Source: a virus
Length of the DNA stretch: 32,843 nt
Direction: 5' to 3' (one strand)
IMG/VR virus record: IMGVR_UViG_3300025660_000017
Coordinates: 1-32,843 of that record
Positions 8,382-32,503 of the stretch are shown in pieces. Positions within the stretch are counted from its first letter, which is position 1. Each line of letters starts with the position of its first letter. The notes beneath the pieces were generated by a model. That model did no database searches. It was given only the letters and a program-made list of their open reading frames with translations, and was not told where the DNA came from. Made by a program: the position numbers and the translations under genes.

Positions 8382-8873
8382 ATGAAAAATCTTTTAATTG
8401 TTTTAATTGGGATGCTTTTTACTTTTAACGCTCATGCTTTTGCATTGATCTGTAATAGCGGCAGTGGCTTTGATGGGGCCGGTACTGTTATTAGTGGAAC
8501 CAACGCAAAATGTTATATCAAGATTAAAAACGCTTCTGGCAGCGCCCGTGCGGATGGAGATGTGATGGCGTGGGATATTACCAACGATGGCGGTTACAGC
8601 GTTACTGGCGTAGCAACTGCACTAGTTCCTAGCGCATGTGTCTTTGACGCTGCTTGTGCCGCTGGCGCAGTTTGTAAGTGTCAGGTCTACGGCCAGCATG
8701 ATGCGGTTAAAACTGACGTCGCTAGTGCTACAGTAACAGCGGGCTATGGGTTAGTTCAATCAGGAACGGCGTTCAAGGCACAAGGGGCCGTTGTTGGTAA
8801 CGGCTACTTCGCTATAGCTCTTGATACGTCTGCAGTTAGTGGGACGGTTGAGGCTATGATTAATGCTCTTTAA
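8382..8873 (+). CDS. Secreted cysteine-containing beta-rich protein
   Basis: A 163-residue protein with a textbook signal peptide (hydrophobic residues 3-16, AHA cleavage site after about residue 19). The mature part is Gly/Ala/Ser/Val-rich with several Cys residues (LICNSG, AKCYIK, SACVFDAACAAGAVCKC), suited to disulfides in the periplasm. The ribosome-binding site AAGGAGGGG is strong. It takes the place where a capsid decoration protein might be expected, but decoration proteins assemble in the cytoplasm and would not be exported. It overlaps the O-antigen ligase-like gene by 11 bases, suggesting the two act together on the envelope. Family not recognised. Confidence 0.75.
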   Translation: MKNLLIVLIGMLFTFNAHAFALICNSGSGFDGAGTVISGTNAKCYIKIKNASGSARADGDVMAWDITNDGGYSVTGVATALVPSACVFDAACAAGAVCKCQVYGQHDAVKTDVASATVTAGYGLVQSGTAFKAQGAVVGNGYFAIALDTSAVSGTVEAMINAL

Positions 8874-10089
8874 AAGGGGCAATCTTTACGCTTATTTTGT
8901 AGGAGGGGCCTTATTGGCCCTTCCTTTTTTCGTTAGAGTCTCAAATATAGCTAGTGACATCACTCATAGCAAAAACCTTTTTTTTATATTCATAACAGTG
9001 CTATCGATAGCATTATTTGGGTTCTTTAAAAAAATACCAAAAACATTATCTGTAACGCTAGGGACTATCCTGATCCATGCTTTCGTAAATCAAATGGACT
9101 ACATGCATGGCGCAGTGCTATACCAGTTTATTTGCTTGTGTGCTGGTGCGCTTCTCTTGGCACAATCAACTACAAACTTTAAAAAAGAAGATTCATATAT
9201 TATCCTAAACGCAATGGCCATCACCGCAATTTTGCAGTCATGCTGGGTTTTTGCAGAATATCTTTTCGGGCTAACGTACTCAGATATTTTTAATTTCTTT
9301 GGTGGTGAATATGCCACGGTGACGCACGAGGGGCGTCACATATTGAAGGAAGATCGAGTTATAAGCGGATCACTGGCCAACAGTAATTATAGTGGCGCAT
9401 TACTCGCTATTTGTAGCATTGCACTGCTAAGACGGGGCTGGCGTTGGGTTCTGTCGTTTACTATTGCGGCGCTATTCATGCTAGGGGCAACGCTCCCCGC
9501 TATCTCGTTTTTATTTGGGGCTTGCGTATCTATAGCGTTAAATATGCAAGTAAAAGGGAGCGCTCTTGTCAAAATTATGACAGTAATCGCCGCCATCCTC
9601 GTTGTGATAACACTTACAAGTAGTCGTACAAGTGTTTTCAGGTCTAATTCAAGGGTTACGGCCTGGAACGCGACAATTAAAAATATCTTTATAGGAAAAT
9701 CGGTAAAAGTAGAGATTGATCAGGATAAAAAAGAATCGGTAACGATAGGCAGAAGGTACATTGCAGGCCATGGTTTGGGGTATTTCCCCTCGGTAAGTGC
9801 TGCTTTTATGCCCGAATCGGTAACGAGGAGTGGTAGAGTGTGGAGACAGGCTCATAACGAATATTTGGAGTTCATCTATATATTTGGACTAATTGGGGTG
9901 CTTTACCTGTACTTGCTTTTTAGGCCTCTCTCTCTCTTGCGTTTTCCCGATCCTTACATTGTCGGAGCGTTTGCGGTAACTATTTTCAATAGCAGCGGTC
10001 ACTTTTTGTTCCATATCTCATCGACTGCGTTTATTGGTATAATACTTCTGGGTTTGCTCTACAACCAAACAGGCAGGGAAAACATATGA
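8863..10089 (+). CDS. O-antigen ligase/polymerase-like membrane protein (Wzy_C type)
   Basis: A 408-residue polytopic inner-membrane protein with about ten hydrophobic segments. It carries two Wzy_C/WaaL-like landmarks: SGSLANSNYSG near residue 168 in a loop before a helix, and a large periplasmic loop containing GHGLGYF and ending in RQAHNEYLEFIYIFG (near 327-341). The family transfers or polymerises glycans on undecaprenyl or lipid A-core carriers. In a phage it could alter host surface polysaccharide and block re-adsorption. It overlaps the preceding gene by 11 bases and the adaptor gene by ATGA, so it is locked into late expression rather than being an independent insert. The substrate is unknown. 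Confidence 0.75.
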   Translation: MLFKRGNLYAYFVGGALLALPFFVRVSNIASDITHSKNLFFIFITVLSIALFGFFKKIPKTLSVTLGTILIHAFVNQMDYMHGAVLYQFICLCAGALLLAQSTTNFKKEDSYIILNAMAITAILQSCWVFAEYLFGLTYSDIFNFFGGEYATVTHEGRHILKEDRVISGSLANSNYSGALLAICSIALLRRGWRWVLSFTIAALFMLGATLPAISFLFGACVSIALNMQVKGSALVKIMTVIAAILVVITLTSSRTSVFRSNSRVTAWNATIKNIFIGKSVKVEIDQDKKESVTIGRRYIAGHGLGYFPSVSAAFMPESVTRSGRVWRQAHNEYLEFIYIFGLIGVLYLYLLFRPLSLLRFPDPYIVGAFAVTIFNSSGHFLFHISSTAFIGIILLGLLYNQTGRENI

Positions 10090-21699: not shown

Positions 21700-21718
21700 T
21701 TCTTATTCCTCCATTTCC

Positions 21719-22009
21719 TTAATTAGTTTCATCCAACGCCTCCAAAATTATTTCGACTTGCTTTGACCTTTTTGTCATACCCACTGCTGACCAATTTGAT
21801 GGCCACACTGCTGAATCCGCTGAATACCTTGCCGACACCCCTACTGAACGCTCTGCTGAACTCGCTGCTGAATTCGCTGCCCCCCCCGCTGCTCCCTCTG
21901 CCGACCACGCTGCTGTCCACGCTGCTGAATGTGCTCCTGTCTTCCTCGCTCCCTCTGTTGCTGCTCCCGCTGCCCTCCTAGCTTTTTTTAACTCCCTATC
22001 CAATTTCAT
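21719..22009 (-). CDS. AAWS-repeat protein 6
   Basis: A 96-residue member of the array family. It starts MKLDRELKKARRAAG, carries four-residue Ala/Ser/Trp repeats (HSAAWTAAWSAEGAA, NSAASSAERS) and ends KQVEIILEALDETN, the shared tail. The start overlaps a relic tail rather than an intact gene. Its own end contains another junction (ATGAAACTAATTAA) leading to a nine-codon frame, then the next gene. All-helical, function unknown. It is more divergent in its repeats than its paralogues. Confidence 0.7.
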   Translation of the reverse strand: MKLDRELKKARRAAGAATEGARKTGAHSAAWTAAWSAEGAAGGAANSAASSAERSVGVSARYSADSAVWPSNWSAVGMTKRSKQVEIILEALDETN

Positions 22010-22024
22010 CTAATGCCTCCATGA

Positions 22025-22354
22025 TCATTTCGAGTTGCCTTGACTCCGCTTTTTCTTTTGCTCGATCTTTAAGATTTTGTCTTGGCCTAGCTGTAAGCAA
22101 TTATGACAAACATGATAAGCTTTAATGCGAAGGTCATTTTTAAGCTCTAGGCACTTATTTTCAAACGCACGGTAATTAGTCCAGCCTGAGTAGCTTTCTC
22201 CATCCTTCTTGCTTGCTTTGAACGCATCAATATCGGGCATATTCACTCTAAGTGTTGGGGTTACTGCCCCCCAACCGAGCGGAGTTTTTATTTTTGAGTC
22301 ATTAGACACAAATATTTCGTTGCAAATGTTACAAGTGAACTTTATTTCAATCAT
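22025..22354 (-). CDS. Zinc-ribbon-like protein with captured repeat-family tail
   Basis: A 109-residue protein with two CxxC pairs: CNIC near residues 8-11 and CHNC near residues 83-86, suggesting one zinc site. Between them lies a Gly/Pro/Trp segment (PLGWGAVTPTL). The last codons (SQGNSK) read the nucleotide sequence of the array's conserved tail in a different frame. The frame that would encode RQLEMIMEALDEIG runs on for about 25 bases past the stop. So this gene appears joined to the remnant of a repeat gene. It overlaps the preceding repeat gene by eight bases. Possible nucleic-acid or metal binder; not recognised. Confidence 0.7.
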   Translation of the reverse strand: MIEIKFTCNICNEIFVSNDSKIKTPLGWGAVTPTLRVNMPDIDAFKASKKDGESYSGWTNYRAFENKCLELKNDLRIKAYHVCHNCLQLGQDKILKIEQKKKRSQGNSK

Positions 22355-22541
22355 TTAAAACCTCCAAAATTATTTCGACTTGTTCACTCTTTTCCGTTCC
22401 GTCTGCTGACCTTGCTGCTGACCTCGCTGCTGTCTCTGCTGTTGCCCTCGCTGCTGTCTCTGCTGACCACGCTGCTGACCACGCTGACCACGCTGACCAC
22501 GCAGCTTCTTTAGCCTTTTTCAATTCTTTATTTAATCTCAT
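22347..22541 (-). CDS. AAWS-repeat protein 5
   Basis: A 64-residue family member: start MRLNKELKKAKEAAWSAWSA, repeats containing Trp, Glu and Arg variants, then tail TEKSEQVEIILEVLND. Its start overlaps the end of repeat gene 4 by exactly 14 bases, and its end overlaps the zinc-ribbon start by eight. The tail is closest to that of repeat gene 3 (TEKSEQVEMILEALDE), so tails exist in at least two types. All-helical with no membrane segment; function unknown. Confidence 0.7.
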   Translation of the reverse strand: MRLNKELKKAKEAAWSAWSAWSAAWSAETAARATAETAARSAARSADGTEKSEQVEIILEVLND

Positions 22542-22857
22542 CCAACGCCTCCATGATCATTTCTACTTGCCTTGACCTTTCTGCCGACCTCGCTGCCGCC
22601 CTCGCTATTGACCACGCTGCCGACCTCCCTGCCGACCTCGCTGCTGACCACGCTGCCGACCACGCTGCTGAACTCGCTGCTGAACTCGCTGCTGAACTCG
22701 CTGTTGAACACGCTATTGACCTCGCTGCTGAATACGCTGCTAAATGCGCTGCTGACCACGCTACTGTCTCTGCTGACCAGCCTGCTGCTAGCTCTGCCGA
22801 CCTCGCTGCTGCCCACGCTGCTTCTTTAGCCTTTTTCAATTCTTTATTTAATCTCAT
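22528..22857 (-). CDS. AAWS-repeat protein 4 (longest array member)
   Basis: A 109-residue family member, MRLNKELKKAKEAAW at the start. It has the longest run of four-residue units (SSAASSAASSAAWSAAWSAA, SAGRSAAWSIARAAARSAE), then the tail SRQVEMIMEALDEIK. The last about 37 codons are almost identical to those of repeat gene 2 in DNA. Start and stop overlap neighbours by 14 bases each. A helix with Ala every third or fourth residue could pack very tightly on partners. Length differences between paralogues look like changes in repeat number. Confidence 0.75.
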   Translation of the reverse strand: MRLNKELKKAKEAAWAAARSAELAAGWSAETVAWSAAHLAAYSAARSIACSTASSAASSAASSAAWSAAWSAARSAGRSAAWSIARAAARSAERSRQVEMIMEALDEIK

Positions 22858-23143
22858 CCAACGCCTCCAGAATCATTTCGACTTGTTCACTCTTTTCCGT
22901 TCCGGCTGCTGACCACGCTGCTGACCTCGCTGCTGTCTCTGCTGACCACGCTGCTGACCACGCTGACCACGCTGACCACGCTGCTCTCGCTGCTGAATAC
23001 ACTGATCTTACTGAATCCGCTGTTGAACATGCTGCTGACCACGCTGTTGAACATGCTGCTGAACATGCTCCTGTCCTCCTTGCTCTCTTTGCTGCTGACC
23101 TCGCTGCTGACCTCGCCTTTTCTAACTCCTTATCTAGTTTCAT
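22844..23143 (-). CDS. AAWS-repeat protein 3
   Basis: A 99-residue family member: MKLDKELEKARSAARSAAKR, then mixed repeats with Cys variants (CSAACSTAWSAACSTADS) and Trp units (AWSAWSAWSAAWSAE), ending TEKSEQVEMILEALDEIK. It overlaps repeat gene 2 upstream and repeat gene 4 downstream by 14 bases at each side. A Ser/Val-Tyr interruption (VRSVYSAARA) breaks the regular pattern. Function unknown. Confidence 0.72.
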   Translation of the reverse strand: MKLDKELEKARSAARSAAKRARRTGACSAACSTAWSAACSTADSVRSVYSAARAAWSAWSAWSAAWSAETAARSAAWSAAGTEKSEQVEMILEALDEIK

Positions 23144-23342
23144 CCAATGCCTCCATGATCATTTCGACTTGCCTTGACCTTTCTGCCGACCTCGCTGCCG
23201 CCCTCGCTATTGACCACGCTGCCGACCTCCCTGCCGACCTCGCTGCTGACCTCGCTGCCGACCTCGCTGCTGAATCTGCTGCTGACCAGCCTGCTGACCT
23301 CGCTGTTGACCTCGCAGCTTCTAACTCTCTATCTAGCTTCAC
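23130..23342 (-). CDS. AAWS-repeat protein 2
   Basis: A 70-residue family member. I place the start at GTG 23342 rather than ATG 23369. GTG gives VKLDRELEAAR, the same opening as its paralogues. It makes the usual 14-base overlap with the preceding gene (23329-23342), and AAGGG lies seven bases upstream. Repeats follow (SAGWSAADSAARSAARSAAR) and the tail SRQVEMIMEALDETR. The C-terminal part is near-identical at DNA level to repeat gene 4. Confidence 0.72.
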   Translation of the reverse strand: MKLDRELEAARSTARSAGWSAADSAARSAARSAARSAGRSAAWSIARAAARSAERSRQVEMIMEALDETR

Positions 23343-23925
23343 TTCCATACCCTTTTCGATCGTACTCACCGAAGTTACAAGCTATCCATTTCTCCTTCAT
23401 TTGAATAGCTTCTCTCGGTCGTTTATCATTTGGATAAGTATCTTCAAAACGATGCAGACAGCTCCATGCGAATCGAGTCGCTAAAATGTGAAGAGTTTTT
23501 TCGGGGATAAATTCAGGACGTAACACCAAGCTGATAGTATCTTCTGACAGTACACCTTTCACGCCGCCTAAATATTTCAGAGTATTTTTGCCGAAAATTT
23601 TGATACATTCTTCGGTGTATTCTTTTAGAGCGTCAAGAGTTAAGTTTTTATTAAGTTCTTCGACATTATGTACACCCTCTATGTCAAGCCCCATCATTTC
23701 GCAAAAGTCTTTTATTCCATATTCGCAAAAACCCATCTCTCTTGCTTGCTTAAAGCTAATAGTAGAGTAGGGGTAATAACCACTCTTTAGCTTCTTTTCG
23801 ATTTCTGCTTCTGCTATTTTTATCGCTTCTGCCTCACTTAGCTTTTCAAACTCTTCTATTGAGAAGTGATACTCACCCTTTTTGGTTGTAATTAGTACAT
23901 GAGTTTCTTTTTTAGTAATTTTCAT
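23329..23925 (-). CDS. Imm-5-like head protein within the repeat array
   Basis: A 198-residue protein that is not repetitive. The N-terminal 60 residues are Glu/Lys-rich, and the middle contains FCEMMGLDIEGVHNVEEL. Residues 151-181 (RFAWSCLHRFEDTYPND, KRPREAI, MKEKWI) resemble the signature of Imm-5-like putative immunity proteins, in which this head is normally followed in the same protein by Ala-rich AAW/AAR helices. Here those helices lie in the next gene instead. Both ends use the array's 14-base overlaps. So it may be one half of a split protein working with the repeat proteins. Family link is from memory of the motif, not a search. Confidence 0.65.
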   Translation of the reverse strand: MKITKKETHVLITTKKGEYHFSIEEFEKLSEAEAIKIAEAEIEKKLKSGYYPYSTISFKQAREMGFCEYGIKDFCEMMGLDIEGVHNVEELNKNLTLDALKEYTEECIKIFGKNTLKYLGGVKGVLSEDTISLVLRPEFIPEKTLHILATRFAWSCLHRFEDTYPNDKRPREAIQMKEKWIACNFGEYDRKGYGSEAR

Positions 23926-24205
23926 TCTTAACCTCCTCTAAGATTATTTCAATTTGTTTATTCTTTCCTACTGCACTCGCTGCTGAATATGCTGACCGGC
24001 TTGTTGTCTCTGTTGAATACGCTGCCGACCACGCTGCCGACCTTTCTGCCGACCACGCTGCCGACCACGCTGCCGACCTCGCTGCCGACCTCTCTGCTGA
24101 CCACGCTGCTGACCTCGCTGCTAAACACGCTGCTGTCCACGCTGCTAAACACGCTGCTGTCCACGCAGCTTCTTTAGCCTCTTTTAATTCCCTATCAAGC
24201 TTCAT
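23912..24205 (-). CDS. AAWS-repeat protein 1
   Basis: A 97-residue family member. I chose ATG 24205 because it overlaps the preceding 15-codon frame by ATGA and matches the paralogue opening (MKLDRELKEAKEAAWTAA); ATG 24211 is two codons upstream. Regular units (ARSAAWSAAWSAERSAAWSA) lead to a diverged tail, GKNKQIEIILEEVKNENY. It is the first array gene transcribed. The last 14 bases form the start of the Imm-5-like gene, with GAGGAGG as its ribosome-binding site inside this coding end. Confidence 0.72.
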   Translation of the reverse strand: MKLDRELKEAKEAAWTAACLAAWTAACLAARSAAWSAERSAARSAAWSAAWSAERSAAWSAAYSTETTSRSAYSAASAVGKNKQIEIILEEVKNENY

Positions 24206-24249
24206 TTCCATATTCCCTTAAAGTATCCACCCGCTGGCGTTTTTCTCAT
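24202..24249 (-). CDS. Possible 15-codon coupling ORF
   Basis: ATG 24249 overlaps the previous stop (ATGA), and the stop overlaps the first repeat gene's start (ATGA). The peptide MRKTPAGGYFKGIWK is basic and aromatic. GGGGGGAGCA lies upstream as a possible ribosome-binding site. It may be only a bridge that lets ribosomes re-initiate on the array. Confidence 0.35.
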   Translation of the reverse strand: MRKTPAGGYFKGIWK

Positions 24250-24374
24250 TGCTCCCCCCGTTTTAACAGAACTTCATTTTTAAGCCTATCTAGCCTCGCT
24301 CTTTCGTTGTGATAGTTTTTCCAAAAGTGCCAAGATAAAAATATTAAATATGCGGTTAAAATTGCTCCGATCAT
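24246..24374 (-). CDS. Small membrane protein (42 aa)
   Basis: ATG 24374 overlaps the exonuclease stop by four bases (ATGA). The 42-residue product has an N-terminal hydrophobic helix (MIGAILTAYLIFLSWHFW) and a charged helical tail (NERARLDRLKNEVLLKRGE). Single-span topology with an amphipathic tail. Function unknown; coupling to the recombination genes and to the following ORF supports it being translated. Confidence 0.5.
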   Translation of the reverse strand: MIGAILTAYLIFLSWHFWKNYHNERARLDRLKNEVLLKRGEQ

Positions 24375-25057
24375 ATCTTTGCCCATTGGTCGCCGAAACT
24401 AAATCCCCTGCTTTTTAATTTTTGATCCATTGTTGTGATAAATTCTTTTGATGCCTCGTCAAGTAGCGCCGCTATCTTCTCGTCCTTTTCGACTAGCTTC
24501 ACATGTAACACGCTCTTTGTCATCCGGGGATCATAGCTTGCAAAGTACCACGATTGCGCATCAGTCACCCACATTGAGAACTGGATCTGCTTTATATATT
24601 CGCTCTTAATCGTATCGTCAAAAAGAAAATCAATATGCACCTTAGATGTTTTCGGGCATTTTATTTCAACGCCGGGAAGCGCTGCTATCGCATCAGGACT
24701 GCACCCAATTCGCAACCCCGTATCTTTAAAAATAAAAGGGAGGGTGTAGGTATCAATACCAGTGTGAAATTCAAAAGCGGATAGCGCCGCTGGTTCGTTA
24801 TCATGCCCCCAATCCATCGATGCCGATGATACGCTATTGCTTTTACCTGTGCAGACTTCCGCAATTAACTCATTCATATAAGTTTTATATTTTGCTGTTT
24901 TAACTCCTGCTAAGAGACAATCGGCTTTTGATGCTGTTAAAACGCCGTGGCGCATAGACAACCATTCGTCGCTCCCTTGCGATATTTCAGAAGGATCGAA
25001 ACCAAAAACCGACTCAAGTTTTTTTAGGTCGTCCATGTGTTGTTGCTGTGTTTTCAT
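24371..25057 (-). CDS. YqaJ/lambda-type exonuclease
   Basis: A 228-residue PD-(D/E)XK nuclease of the YqaJ viral recombinase family, a 5'-3' dsDNA exonuclease. Visible motifs: SDEWLSMRHGVLTASKAD near residues 28-45 (the R...G.TAS element), a WGHDNEPAALSAFE helix near 84-97, then the catalytic D...EIKCPKTSK segment (GCSPDAIAALPGVEIKCP, about 118-135) and IQFSMWVT with the last catalytic Gln. It follows RecT by 13 bases and works with it: the nuclease makes single strands that RecT anneals. AAAAGGGGCAGGG gives a ribosome-binding site. Confidence 0.88.
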   Translation of the reverse strand: MKTQQQHMDDLKKLESVFGFDPSEISQGSDEWLSMRHGVLTASKADCLLAGVKTAKYKTYMNELIAEVCTGKSNSVSSASMDWGHDNEPAALSAFEFHTGIDTYTLPFIFKDTGLRIGCSPDAIAALPGVEIKCPKTSKVHIDFLFDDTIKSEYIKQIQFSMWVTDAQSWYFASYDPRMTKSVLHVKLVEKDEKIAALLDEASKEFITTMDQKLKSRGFSFGDQWAKI

Positions 25058-25070
25058 CCCTGCCCCTTTT

Positions 25071-25997
25071 TTATTGATTATATTGTTTTAAAAAGCTTAT
25101 ACAATAATTAACCTCATCGGCGTTCAGGTCGTCGATATTTTCAACTACTCTTCGGTATTTCGCCTGGCAGTGACCCAGTAAACGCTCGGTGCTTGATTTG
25201 CCGTCCTTCTCAGGGATTTGAGTTAGTGCATCGACAAGCATTGTCATTGCGGTTTCAGAGGGGGGGGTCACATCACGCTCGCCATTGTTAATGCTCTCGT
25301 ATCCCTCTGATTCATTGGCGACAAGAATCGCCTCGTCCAATCTTTTTGTGCGGTCAGATGCTGGCCATGTTTTCGCTGCCCGCTTGATAACTGTTTTCTT
25401 AATCATCTCTCTTTCGTCGCTGCTCCCTGCCACCGCCCACGGTCCAGACTTTCTCTTGTATGCCTCTGACTTGTTTCTAATCTCGTAGATATCTTTGATA
25501 GACATAACTGTCGTCAAGAAGTCGCCTTCATTTGTTTTTGCTGTGCAATATGCACCCACTATTTCGCCCCTGTCGTTTGAGAAAGAGTCTCTTTTGTGTG
25601 TGGGGCGCTCACCGATTCCGTTGTCAATAAAGTCATCGTTTTTAAAGACAACTTCCGCCACAACAAAAGAGATCGATCCGGCATCAGTTGCCAACTTCAA
25701 TAGTCCTCGGTAGCTAATGTCGAGGCATACTTGCCCTTTGCGTGGAAGCAGGTAGCAATGACTAGATGCTGGGTTTAGAGATAGCCCGATAGATGCTACA
25801 TTCATAATCGCCGCTTGTACGCTTTGCGGTTTTTGGATTGCTACCTTCATTAAAAAATCATTTTTAGATAATAGGTCAAGCGCAAAAAAAGATTCCTTTT
25901 TAAATGTTACCGCGTCATGTGTTATTGCGATTTCATTAAATGCCTGTTCTTTTACTTTTAAAATTTCTTCACACTGTACTACTGGTAATTTGTTCAT
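25071..25997 (-). CDS. recT: RecT-family single-strand annealing protein
   Basis: A 308-residue protein of the RecT/Redbeta group. The family core is visible: a LSLNPASSHCYLLP element (residues about 73-86), followed by CLDISYRGLLKLATDAGSI (92-110) and the later DIYEIRNKSEAY, GPWAVAGSSDEREMIKKTV, IKRAAKTWP motifs (about 168-215). It binds ssDNA and promotes annealing in phage recombination and concatemer formation. AATAGGAGACAAAAA gives a strong ribosome-binding site, part of which is the end of the upstream frameshifted gene. Paired with the YqaJ exonuclease. Confidence 0.9.
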   Translation of the reverse strand: MNKLPVVQCEEILKVKEQAFNEIAITHDAVTFKKESFFALDLLSKNDFLMKVAIQKPQSVQAAIMNVASIGLSLNPASSHCYLLPRKGQVCLDISYRGLLKLATDAGSISFVVAEVVFKNDDFIDNGIGERPTHKRDSFSNDRGEIVGAYCTAKTNEGDFLTTVMSIKDIYEIRNKSEAYKRKSGPWAVAGSSDEREMIKKTVIKRAAKTWPASDRTKRLDEAILVANESEGYESINNGERDVTPPSETAMTMLVDALTQIPEKDGKSSTERLLGHCQAKYRRVVENIDDLNADEVNYCISFLKQYNQ

Positions 25998-26684: not shown

Positions 26685-27512
26685 ATGAAATGGTTTAGGC
26701 ATTTTAGTTCAGCATGGAGTTCTATAAAATTAAATCAACTAATCGACGATTTAGGCGTTGAGGGATATGGCCGATACTGGCTTTTTTTGGAGCTACTTTC
26801 CGAATATTTTAATGGAGAAAATTCTAGTTTTGCTATGCATTATAGACAAATTTCGCCCCGTGTTATGCTAAAAAGTGAACGGAAATTAGAGGATTTTCTC
26901 AAAAAGTTGTCAGTATACAAATTAATCACATATAGAATTGAAGACAAAACGTATTATATCGACTGTCCTATCCTGTGGGAATTACAGAGTAAGGACTCAA
27001 AATATAATCGTAAGCGCGTCGTAAGTAACGATCTTGGTACGACCCTAGAAGTAGAAGAGAATAAGAATAAGAATAAGAATAAGAATAAGAATAAGAGCGA
27101 AAGCGAAAAAAGTGTGAATCTTGAAATCTTGAATCATTGGAACTCTAAAAAAATTATATGCCATAAAAATAACGCTATTAGTCTTAAAAAGATAGGTCAG
27201 GGGATAAAACACCGGGGCAACTACTCATCACAAGAAATCAAACAGGCCATTGACAGCTATCATTTGGTTTTAACGGGTGATGACTATTTCTGGACACACA
27301 AATGGTCGTTGTGGGAATTTTTAAAACGCGACAATGCAGATAAGTTTTATCCAGACGAGTTTGACCCTGAAAGGTTTTTCCAAAAAAATAAAATATGTCA
27401 AAGTAAAGCCGAGGCAACGGAAGAGAGGATGCTCAAAATGTTTTCTAGTCCGACGCCGGACATATCAGGGGGAGAGGTTGTTTTAGAGGAAACCGAATGG
27501 GGGGAAGTGTGA
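26685..27512 (+). CDS. Replication initiator / replisome-organizer-like protein (Lin1244/Lin1753 N-terminal type)
   Basis: A 275-residue protein. The start WFRHFSSAWSSIKLNQLIDDLGVEGYGRYWLFLELL is split here as WFRHFSS and GYGRYWLFLELL: the DUF4373-type winged-helix module seen in phage replication organizers (about residues 1-110). A linker of six Asn-Lys pairs (residues about 126-137) leads to a C-terminal helical region (NYSSQEIKQAIDSYHL, WSLWEFLKRD). It would bind the origin and recruit helicase loaders. TAAGGAGCG gives a good ribosome-binding site. It is the first gene of the rightward arm, next to a large inverted repeat. Confidence 0.7.
   Translation: MKWFRHFSSAWSSIKLNQLIDDLGVEGYGRYWLFLELLSEYFNGENSSFAMHYRQISPRVMLKSERKLEDFLKKLSVYKLITYRIEDKTYYIDCPILWELQSKDSKYNRKRVVSNDLGTTLEVEENKNKNKNKNKNKSESEKSVNLEILNHWNSKKIICHKNNAISLKKIGQGIKHRGNYSSQEIKQAIDSYHLVLTGDDYFWTHKWSLWEFLKRDNADKFYPDEFDPERFFQKNKICQSKAEATEERMLKMFSSPTPDISGGEVVLEETEWGEV
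27060..27095 (+). repeat. Hexanucleotide repeat (AATAAG)x6 in coding sequence
   Basis: Six perfect AATAAG units encode Asn-Lys pairs in the linker of the replication-organizer-like protein. Units are six bases, so changes in number keep the frame and only alter linker length. Confidence 0.9.
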
Positions 27513-31130: not shown

Positions 31131-31718
31131 TTGAAAGTTAAATGCAGTTACGACGAATTAGTACCGCTTCACAAGCTAATACCGCACCCAAAGAATAGAA
31201 ACAGGCATCCCGACGGACAGATCGGCAGACTAGCGAAGATCATTGACTATCAAGGCATGAGATCGCCAATTGTAATATCAAAACTTAGCGGGTTTATAAC
31301 AAAAGGTCATGGGAGACTAGAAGCTCTAAAGAAACTAGGTTGGGAAACTGCACCAGTTAATCATCAAGAGTATGACAACGAAGCTCAAGAGTACGCCGAC
31401 ATTATAGCGGATAACGAAATCGCTAGGTGGGCAACGCTTGATCAAGATGGTTTGATCGAGGACTTGAAAGAGATTGAGATCGAGGATTTGGAAGTATTAG
31501 GGTTGGATGATTTTAATTTTGATGCAGTCAGCATTAAAGAGATAAATCAAGGCGACGAGAACAGCGAATGGGCTGGTCTTCCGGATTTCAATCAAGGGGA
31601 TAATTATATTAAACTTATTTTTCACTTCCCGTCCGAAGAGGCAAGGGAGGCTTATGTGAAAAAAAATAACATAGAGGTAACCATGAAAAAGAGTAATCAG
31701 TGGATTGTTCACAAATAA
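31131..31718 (+). CDS. ParB/sulfiredoxin-fold nuclease-like protein
   Basis: A 195-residue protein starting at TTG 31131 with AAAAGGAGA upstream. The ParB N-terminal fold is clear: LVPLHKLIPHPKNRNRHPDG, then IIDYQGMRSPIVISK, ITKGHGRLEALKKLGWETAP (the conserved GH-R box), and QEYADIIADNEIARWA. Phage proteins of this type often accompany DNA methylase or base-modification genes. Here the neighbour is a TAGT-like glycosyltransferase, which its end overlaps by 19 bases. The C-terminal 65 residues form an extra acidic and then small alpha/beta domain. Confidence 0.82.
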   Translation: MKVKCSYDELVPLHKLIPHPKNRNRHPDGQIGRLAKIIDYQGMRSPIVISKLSGFITKGHGRLEALKKLGWETAPVNHQEYDNEAQEYADIIADNEIARWATLDQDGLIEDLKEIEIEDLEVLGLDDFNFDAVSIKEINQGDENSEWAGLPDFNQGDNYIKLIFHFPSEEAREAYVKKNNIEVTMKKSNQWIVHK

Positions 31719-32503
31719 AATATCCTATATATATTATCTCAAAAGGACGCTGGGAAAAGCCAATCACCGCAGGGTTCCTTAAAGCCGCTGATATCCCTTT
31801 TTTAATAGCGGTTGAACCTCAGGAGTATAATAATTATTGTGATACTCTTGGCGAGGAATATGTTGCTAAGTTGCCATTTTCCAATATGGGGGTAGGTTCT
31901 TATCCTGCAAGAAACTGGTGCTGGGAGGACAGTATCCAAAAAGGACACAGAAAACACTTTCTTTTTGATGATAATATAAGAGGATTTTACCGTCTTAATA
32001 ATGGTCACCGCTCAAGATGTGAACCATATTTGCCTCTACTCACCCTACAGGACTTCTCTGATAGATATGAAAACCTTGCTGTAGCCGGTTATAACTATCT
32101 TTATTTTGCAAACAAAGAAACAAAGAAACCGTTTTCTATTAATACTCATGTCTACAGCGGCATGTTGATAACTAATAAAATTAAATATCGTTGGAGAATG
32201 AAGTATAATGAGGACGTTGATCTATGTCTACAGGCTCTGCATGAAAGGTGGTGTACTGCTTTAATTAATGTATTCTTAATTGATAAGGTATCAACGGTTG
32301 TTAAATTGAAGGGTGGTAACCAGACAGAACTTTACAAGAACAATGACCATAATTTGAAAACGCTTAAATCGAAATCCCTCGAAAAAGCATGGCCACAATA
32401 TGTGAAAGTAGTAGAGCGATTCGGTAGACCTCATCACCAAGTTAGCTGGAGAAAATACTTTAAGCACCCCCTTCGAAGGATAACTAATAATGGGAATGGG
32501 TAG
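31700..32503 (+). CDS. TAGT-like GT-A glycosyltransferase, candidate DNA base modifier
   Basis: A 267-residue protein opening with YPIYIISKGRW, followed by AVEPQEYNNYCDTLG, MGVGSYPARNWCWE and HFLFDDNIRGFYRLNNG (Asp-Asp near residues 93-94, the DxD-like metal site). Then come VAGYNYLYF, YNEDVDLCLQALH and VKLKGGNQTELY. This order matches the TET/JBP-associated glycosyltransferase family, which sugar-modifies hydroxymethylated pyrimidines in phage DNA. No TET/JBP dioxygenase or hydroxymethylase is seen in the window, so its acceptor is unknown. It overlaps the ParB-like gene by 19 bases and the terminase small subunit by 14. Family call is from memory of motifs. Confidence 0.68.
   Translation: MDCSQIKYPIYIISKGRWEKPITAGFLKAADIPFLIAVEPQEYNNYCDTLGEEYVAKLPFSNMGVGSYPARNWCWEDSIQKGHRKHFLFDDNIRGFYRLNNGHRSRCEPYLPLLTLQDFSDRYENLAVAGYNYLYFANKETKKPFSINTHVYSGMLITNKIKYRWRMKYNEDVDLCLQALHERWCTALINVFLIDKVSTVVKLKGGNQTELYKNNDHNLKTLKSKSLEKAWPQYVKVVERFGRPHHQVSWRKYFKHPLRRITNNGNG

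Follow-up and report, generated by a model that had tools for sequence, protein, structure and literature searches.

Tetrapeptide repeats of the AAxS type were described in 2007 in gp54 of mycobacteriophage Tweety; the authors counted 48, 26 and 15 of them in three phages and noted signs that variation is selected for (PMC2884959). In Tweety gp54, Che8 gp57 and PMC gp51, the repeat is built from a 12-nt unit that encodes Ala-Ala at positions 1 and 2, has Trp among the residues at position 3 and commonly Ser at position 4, and most of the variation falls on the first two bases of the position-3 and position-4 codons (PMC2884959). Each is an accessory gene with a variable repeat number, and each encodes a single fused protein whose N- and C-terminal parts are long and unique. 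According to later reviews, Tweety mutants that escape Phrann or MichelleMyBell prophage defence carry more or fewer gp54 repeats, which tunes counter-defence (PMC9262239, PMC8549241). This is the sole known functional clue to AAxS repeats: repeat number sets which prophage defence is defeated. Another parallel, drawn in PMC2884959, is the VR2 repeat of bbp36 in Bordetella phage BMP-1, an in-frame, variable-number repeat in a non-essential phage gene, which differs in having a 24-bp unit of other sequence.

The window analysed here is the whole of a 32,843-nt IMG/VR virus record (IMGVR_UViG_3300025660_000017). It carries six minus-strand genes with an in-frame 12-nt unit of the gp54 type, encoding Ala-Ala-x-[Ser/Tyr]; the units of Tweety gp54 itself are AAWS, AAGS, AAQS and AAxY. 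Unlike the Tweety type, the repeat here is stand-alone, occurs in six copies, ends in a short tail and has mainly Trp or Arg at position 3, and none of the six proteins flanks it with unique N- and C-terminal domains. An earlier note on this DNA had taken the repeat proteins to be of an unseen kind, a view that is not supported: they belong to a module that is common among phages and is as a rule fused behind an N-terminal domain. Already known are the repeat itself, the variability of its number and one function. What is new is the split from the N-terminal domain, the coexistence of six mosaic hairpin genes, and ribosome-binding sites encoded in their tails.

Layout and repeat structure of the array

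The six proteins share an opening some 10 residues long, a run of four-residue Ala-Ala-(Trp/Arg)-Ser units and a tail of some 14 residues, and the lengths of 64 to 109 aa given in the earlier note are correct. From upstream to downstream, the genes are g1 (23912-24205; 97 aa from the second ATG, with an in-frame ATG two codons upstream at 24211), g2 (23130-23348; 72 aa), g3 (22844-23143; 99 aa), g4 (22528-22857; 109 aa), g5 (22347-22541; 64 aa) and the strongly degenerate g6 (21719-22009; 96 aa). Just upstream on the same strand lie the YqaJ-type exonuclease gene (24371-25057; PF09588, E=4e-24) and the RecT annealing protein gene (25071-25997; PF03837, E=1e-30), in agreement with the neighbours previously assigned. 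Downstream, the operon continues with endolysin and small genes.

The six genes had been called a tandem, adjacent array, but their series is interrupted. A 198-aa gene (23329-23925, minus strand) stands between g1 and g2, overlapping the end of the former and the start of the latter. Between g5 and g6 lies an inserted 109-aa gene (22025-22354, minus strand) with two CxxC pairs, unrelated to the repeat genes. Two minus-strand relics are also found among the units: a tail (RQLEMIMEALDEIG; 21996-22039) of a lost repeat unit, in a frame different from that of the 109-aa gene, and an opening (MKLIKEMEE, then a stop; 21703-21732) that belonged to another lost unit and overlaps the end of g6. Pfam gave no match for any of the six repeat genes, and family searches gave no convincing family for the 109-aa gene. 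PADLOC returned no match for g4 and a weak one for the 198-aa gene (E=0.006), while an Rfam search found no family.

The four-residue period is clear in the proteins, where residue identity at lag 4 is 0.26-0.47 compared with 0.10-0.17 in shuffles (z 4.7 to 9.5). Unit length, however, is not uniformly four residues: Tandem Repeats Finder reports arrays of 12 nt in each of g1-g5, and in g3 and g5 also stretches of a 9-nt unit (Trp-Ser-Ala), with 9- and 12-nt units mixed. The opening pattern occurs exactly five times in the window against 0 expected from shuffled sequence; g2, which starts MEVKLDREL, falls outside the exact pattern. Residues M1, L3, E6, L7 and A10, together with Q97, E99, I101 and E103 of the tail, are invariant across the six proteins.

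This layout could also arise by decay, if a former full-length repeat gene had been broken up and its functionless pieces had stayed open since 12-nt repeats rarely hold stops. Some alternate frames of the repeat are indeed stop-free, with long chance ORFs overlapping the array, and the two relic pieces and the degenerate g6 would fit such debris. Yet each of the six genes has its own start and reads through opening, repeat and tail in a single frame, even though units of 9 and 12 nt are mixed. Substitutions in openings and tails are mostly synonymous (pN/pS 0.27 and 0.22, respectively, from few, non-independent codons), which speaks against simple decay, as does a Shine-Dalgarno spacing of exactly 6 nt at six starts. 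Debris is an unlikely source of the six units. Long ORFs in other frames or on the other strand within the array were rejected as by-products of the repeat.

Misordering or misjoining of a single repeat gene during short-read assembly also has to be weighed, since such repeats are hard to assemble and the sole record is one contig. The units differ by many substitutions and have unique openings, two unique inserted genes lie between them, and the exact blocks they have in common are no longer than 85 nt. These features make an artefact extremely improbable.

The module in other phages and its N-terminal domain

Homologues were sampled by scanning IMG/VR with the pattern AAWxAAWxAA, which occurs at many phage loci. 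Of the six genes, only g4 matches this pattern, which selects for long, regular repeats and may therefore miss some stand-alone units that are short and degenerate. In the sample, the repeat follows an N-terminal part in 69/69 complete repeat ORFs, with a prefix of 28-286 aa that reaches at least 59 aa in 67 of them; a stand-alone unit appeared in none of the 69, nor in a second, stricter count. Given the sampling pattern, stand-alone units are rare, not shown to be absent elsewhere.

The sampled ORFs mostly end in a short tail. The repeat is usually C-terminal in larger proteins with several unrelated N-terminal domains, and the associated families include Imm5_like, DUF7666 plus Imm5_like, and DUF6745. 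An exception to this order is found in contig L014 (155-1198), where an AAWS repeat is fused ahead of a DUF6745 domain. Phage contigs L029 (3556-4406) and L088 (4826-6162) resemble the present array in carrying tandem, slightly overlapping duplicates of repeat genes, but there each copy keeps its own N-terminal domain or prefix; the repeat genes of the L029 type have yet another N-terminal part. Erwinia phage phiEt88 (L251, 1201-1719) was considered as a split gene and rejected, as its frame is continuous. Its annotated 96-aa gene P88_00430 starts inside this longer continuous repeat-protein ORF, and the annotated start looks wrong.

Direct searches for relatives of the locus were negative. 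Queries with the 198-aa and g4 proteins by tblastn found nothing in annotated phages or IMG/VR, probably with the low-complexity repeats masked or scored down, and scans with the tail/opening junction and with the opening gave no relative. RecT and YqaJ queries led to no related contig carrying the array; two contigs whose terminase is 80% identical proved to be fragments that lack the array.

The closest likeness is to Imm5_like phage proteins (PF21805) and the proteins of PHROGs 18326, 8332 and 3416. Their N-terminal helical domain is matched by the 198-aa gene, and the six genes resemble what follows it, namely the linker, the AAxS repeat and the tail with its Q; in all sampled cases domain and repeat are fused in one gene, whereas here they are split and the repeat part is multiplied. 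Homologues L091, L065 and L041 exceed the Imm5_like cut-off (PF21805), and two homologues also pass Imm5 (PF14423). The 198-aa gene itself scores 21.7 bits against Imm5_like, or 22.1 bits in a second scan, below the gathering cut-off of 25 bits. A leave-one-out HMM built from twelve other phage proteins nevertheless finds it at E=1.5e-10 (Z=1000), in an alignment that includes LHILATRFAWSCLHRFEDTYPNDKRPREAI, and the conserved N-terminal core (A...A...L...D.R[PS]..A) is present. At the level of sequence, the 198-aa gene is shown to be homologous to the N-terminal domain of Imm5_like-plus-repeat phage proteins, here standing apart from its repeat.

N-terminal domain and repeat do not share an open frame in the array: the 198-aa frame stops 20 nt into g2, which has its own start and a different frame. 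Inspection by eye revealed no programmed frameshift site at this overlap, and reinitiation at the start of g2 looks simpler than a frameshift. In homologues, the core is followed by a short linker of type GKATEEELEEARGAAWS and then by the repeat. The openings of the six genes, such as MKLDKELEKARSAARS, look like this linker plus a start codon, and their tails, such as RQVEMIMEALDEIK, look like the homologue ends (AQIEIIKKYL, AQIDRLVEMFKENN). Measured against homologue profiles, the agreement is modest: the openings match the linker weakly, ranking within 0.3-2% of all windows, and among Q-anchored windows the tails rank within 1.5e-4 to 2e-2. Low-complexity repeats of this sort do not allow homology itself to be proved, and convergence is possible.

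Structure models point in the same direction. The model of homologue L091 (pLDDT 80, pTM 0.67, 17 aligned sequences) places the domain helices between residues 3 and 79, followed by a repeat hairpin of two long helices (85-113 and 117-155) with an uncertain turn. Its first repeat helix starts at the EEEL linker motif, which lines up with the six openings, so that each of the six genes matches the hairpin as a whole. Modelled alone, g4 also forms a two-helix hairpin, at low confidence (pLDDT 65, pTM 0.28), and this model was used for the hairpin outline only. Fold searches recovered family relatives among viral proteins, one of them named Imm-5-like. In the PDB, sequence searches yielded no solved structure and fold searches no dependable match.

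The family name invites another reading, in which the proteins neutralise the toxin of an abortive-infection or toxin-antitoxin system without any tuning by repeat number. Imm5_like is named after toxin-immunity proteins, Imm5 being described as a mostly alpha immunity protein (PMC3482391), and homologues pass the thresholds for both families. The top structural match, too, comes from a toxin entry (chain 7jtu_B, Z 6.8), a weak hit below the level that counts for helical bundles. Against this reading, the 198-aa gene falls under the cut-off, the six hairpins lack a Pfam match, and the name Imm5_like was assigned from sequence; a role as antitoxin would also leave the six hairpins unexplained. 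It is quite improbable.

Mosaicism and tail-encoded ribosome-binding sites

Comparison of the copies reveals exchange within the array. In their openings, g4 and g5 have a DNA identity of 0.97 and g2 and g3 of 82%, compared with 0.56 for g2 and g4. Over the 96 nt before the tail, the relation is reversed, with 0.98 for g2 and g4 and 0.34 for g4 and g5. Exact blocks of 85 nt are found in g2 and g4 and of 57 nt in g3 and g5. Gene g4 is a mosaic with a front like g5 and a back like g2, recombined inside the repeats, and recombination between repeats had been correctly anticipated. The alignment of g2 plus g3 with g4 plus g5 looks as though a block of two genes had been duplicated and sequence then exchanged within the repeats. 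Such short-repeat recombination would plausibly be the work of the phage's own RecT and YqaJ exonuclease, a role that we infer for these enzymes.

Fast change in repeat number, also proposed earlier, is directly visible in relatives: among Tweety-type proteins that are 91-100% identical to Tweety's over the N-terminal 135 residues, the number of tetrads ranges from 11 to 52. Homologous phages mostly have one gene, as an objection to the idea of a variable array would have it, but its repeat number is not fixed. The further proposal of a dedicated diversification system found no sign in its favour. Among the ORFs read and the genes scanned against PHROGs, there was no reverse transcriptase with a template repeat and no invertase with inverted sites; the phage's own recombination genes and slippage would be sufficient. 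Another possible slippage site lies elsewhere in the window, where a perfect AGAATA hexamer of 6.5 copies (27058-27096, plus strand) codes for a Lys/Asn run in a 275-aa ORF (26685-27512).

The tails have a second feature. GGAGG, written in the tail-end codons, lies exactly 6 nt before the ATG of g3, g4, g5, g6, the 198-aa gene and the 109-aa gene, and every intact tail directly before a gene encodes that gene's GGAGG site. The 109-aa gene starts 6 nt behind the GGAGG of the g5 tail, and the relic tail still supplies GGAGG for g6 although its own gene is gone. Since the tail codons hold the Shine-Dalgarno sequence of the next gene, the units would form a translationally coupled chain. The unit tail thus appears to be a portable ribosome-binding site, directly behind which other genes sit.

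Such a relay might be all that selection maintains: tails and overlapping starts would serve translation in the operon, and the repeat would be free to vary without tuned binding. The service that intact tails provide to two unrelated inserted genes, and the relic tail to g6, agrees with this bystander expansion. A ribosome-binding site needs no repeat protein, however, other operon genes have ordinary sites without a tail, and the Ala-Ala frame is kept in the repeats. We judge bystander expansion fairly improbable.

The preferred account is instead that each of the six genes encodes, on its own, a copy of the repeat hairpin found at the C-terminus of widespread phage accessory proteins. The parent class would combine a helical N-terminal domain, often Imm5_like, with an Ala-Ala-x-Ser repeat and a short Q-containing tail. 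Here the N-terminal domain would have become the 198-aa gene, and recombination inside the 12-nt repeats would have duplicated and shuffled the hairpin. Taken alone, this structural and evolutionary part is very probable.

A possible role in counter-defence

Each hairpin may be an arm whose partner is the N-terminal domain or a common target, and the differing arm lengths may tune binding to host or prophage defence proteins. The phage would keep several arm versions at once and gain others by recombination. Prophage-encoded defence as a class of target has a precedent in the Tweety work (PMC9262239, PMC8549241). By this analogy, counter-defence tuned by hairpin length, as in Tweety gp54, is the likeliest function, though we advance it tentatively and at somewhat short of an even chance. 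The N-terminal domain of Tweety gp54 differs and has no Pfam match, so the function need not carry over. The whole account, in which split hairpin copies are shuffled, coupled and tuned to defence proteins, seems to us marginally the better bet. A more specific version is doubtful: one N-terminal-domain protein would act with any of the six hairpins, each pairing tuned to a different defence protein and the arms renewed by recombination inside the repeats.

Because this phage has separated the repeat part and kept it in six lengths, the array offers a direct test of whether the hairpin alone carries specificity, and of whether it acts with a separate N-terminal domain. The account would also link counter-defence of the Tweety type to a much larger set of Imm5_like and other phage repeat proteins.

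Elsewhere in the window, a gene for a 408-aa polytopic membrane protein (8863-10089, plus strand) lies within the cluster of virion genes, immediately behind those for the head; it matches O-antigen ligase weakly (PF04932, 19.5 bits, under the cut-off) and is perhaps a surface-modifying or exclusion gene. At 31131-32503 on the plus strand, a ParB-like gene is followed by a TET-associated glycosyltransferase gene (PF20691, E=2e-35), a pair that suggests modified phage DNA.
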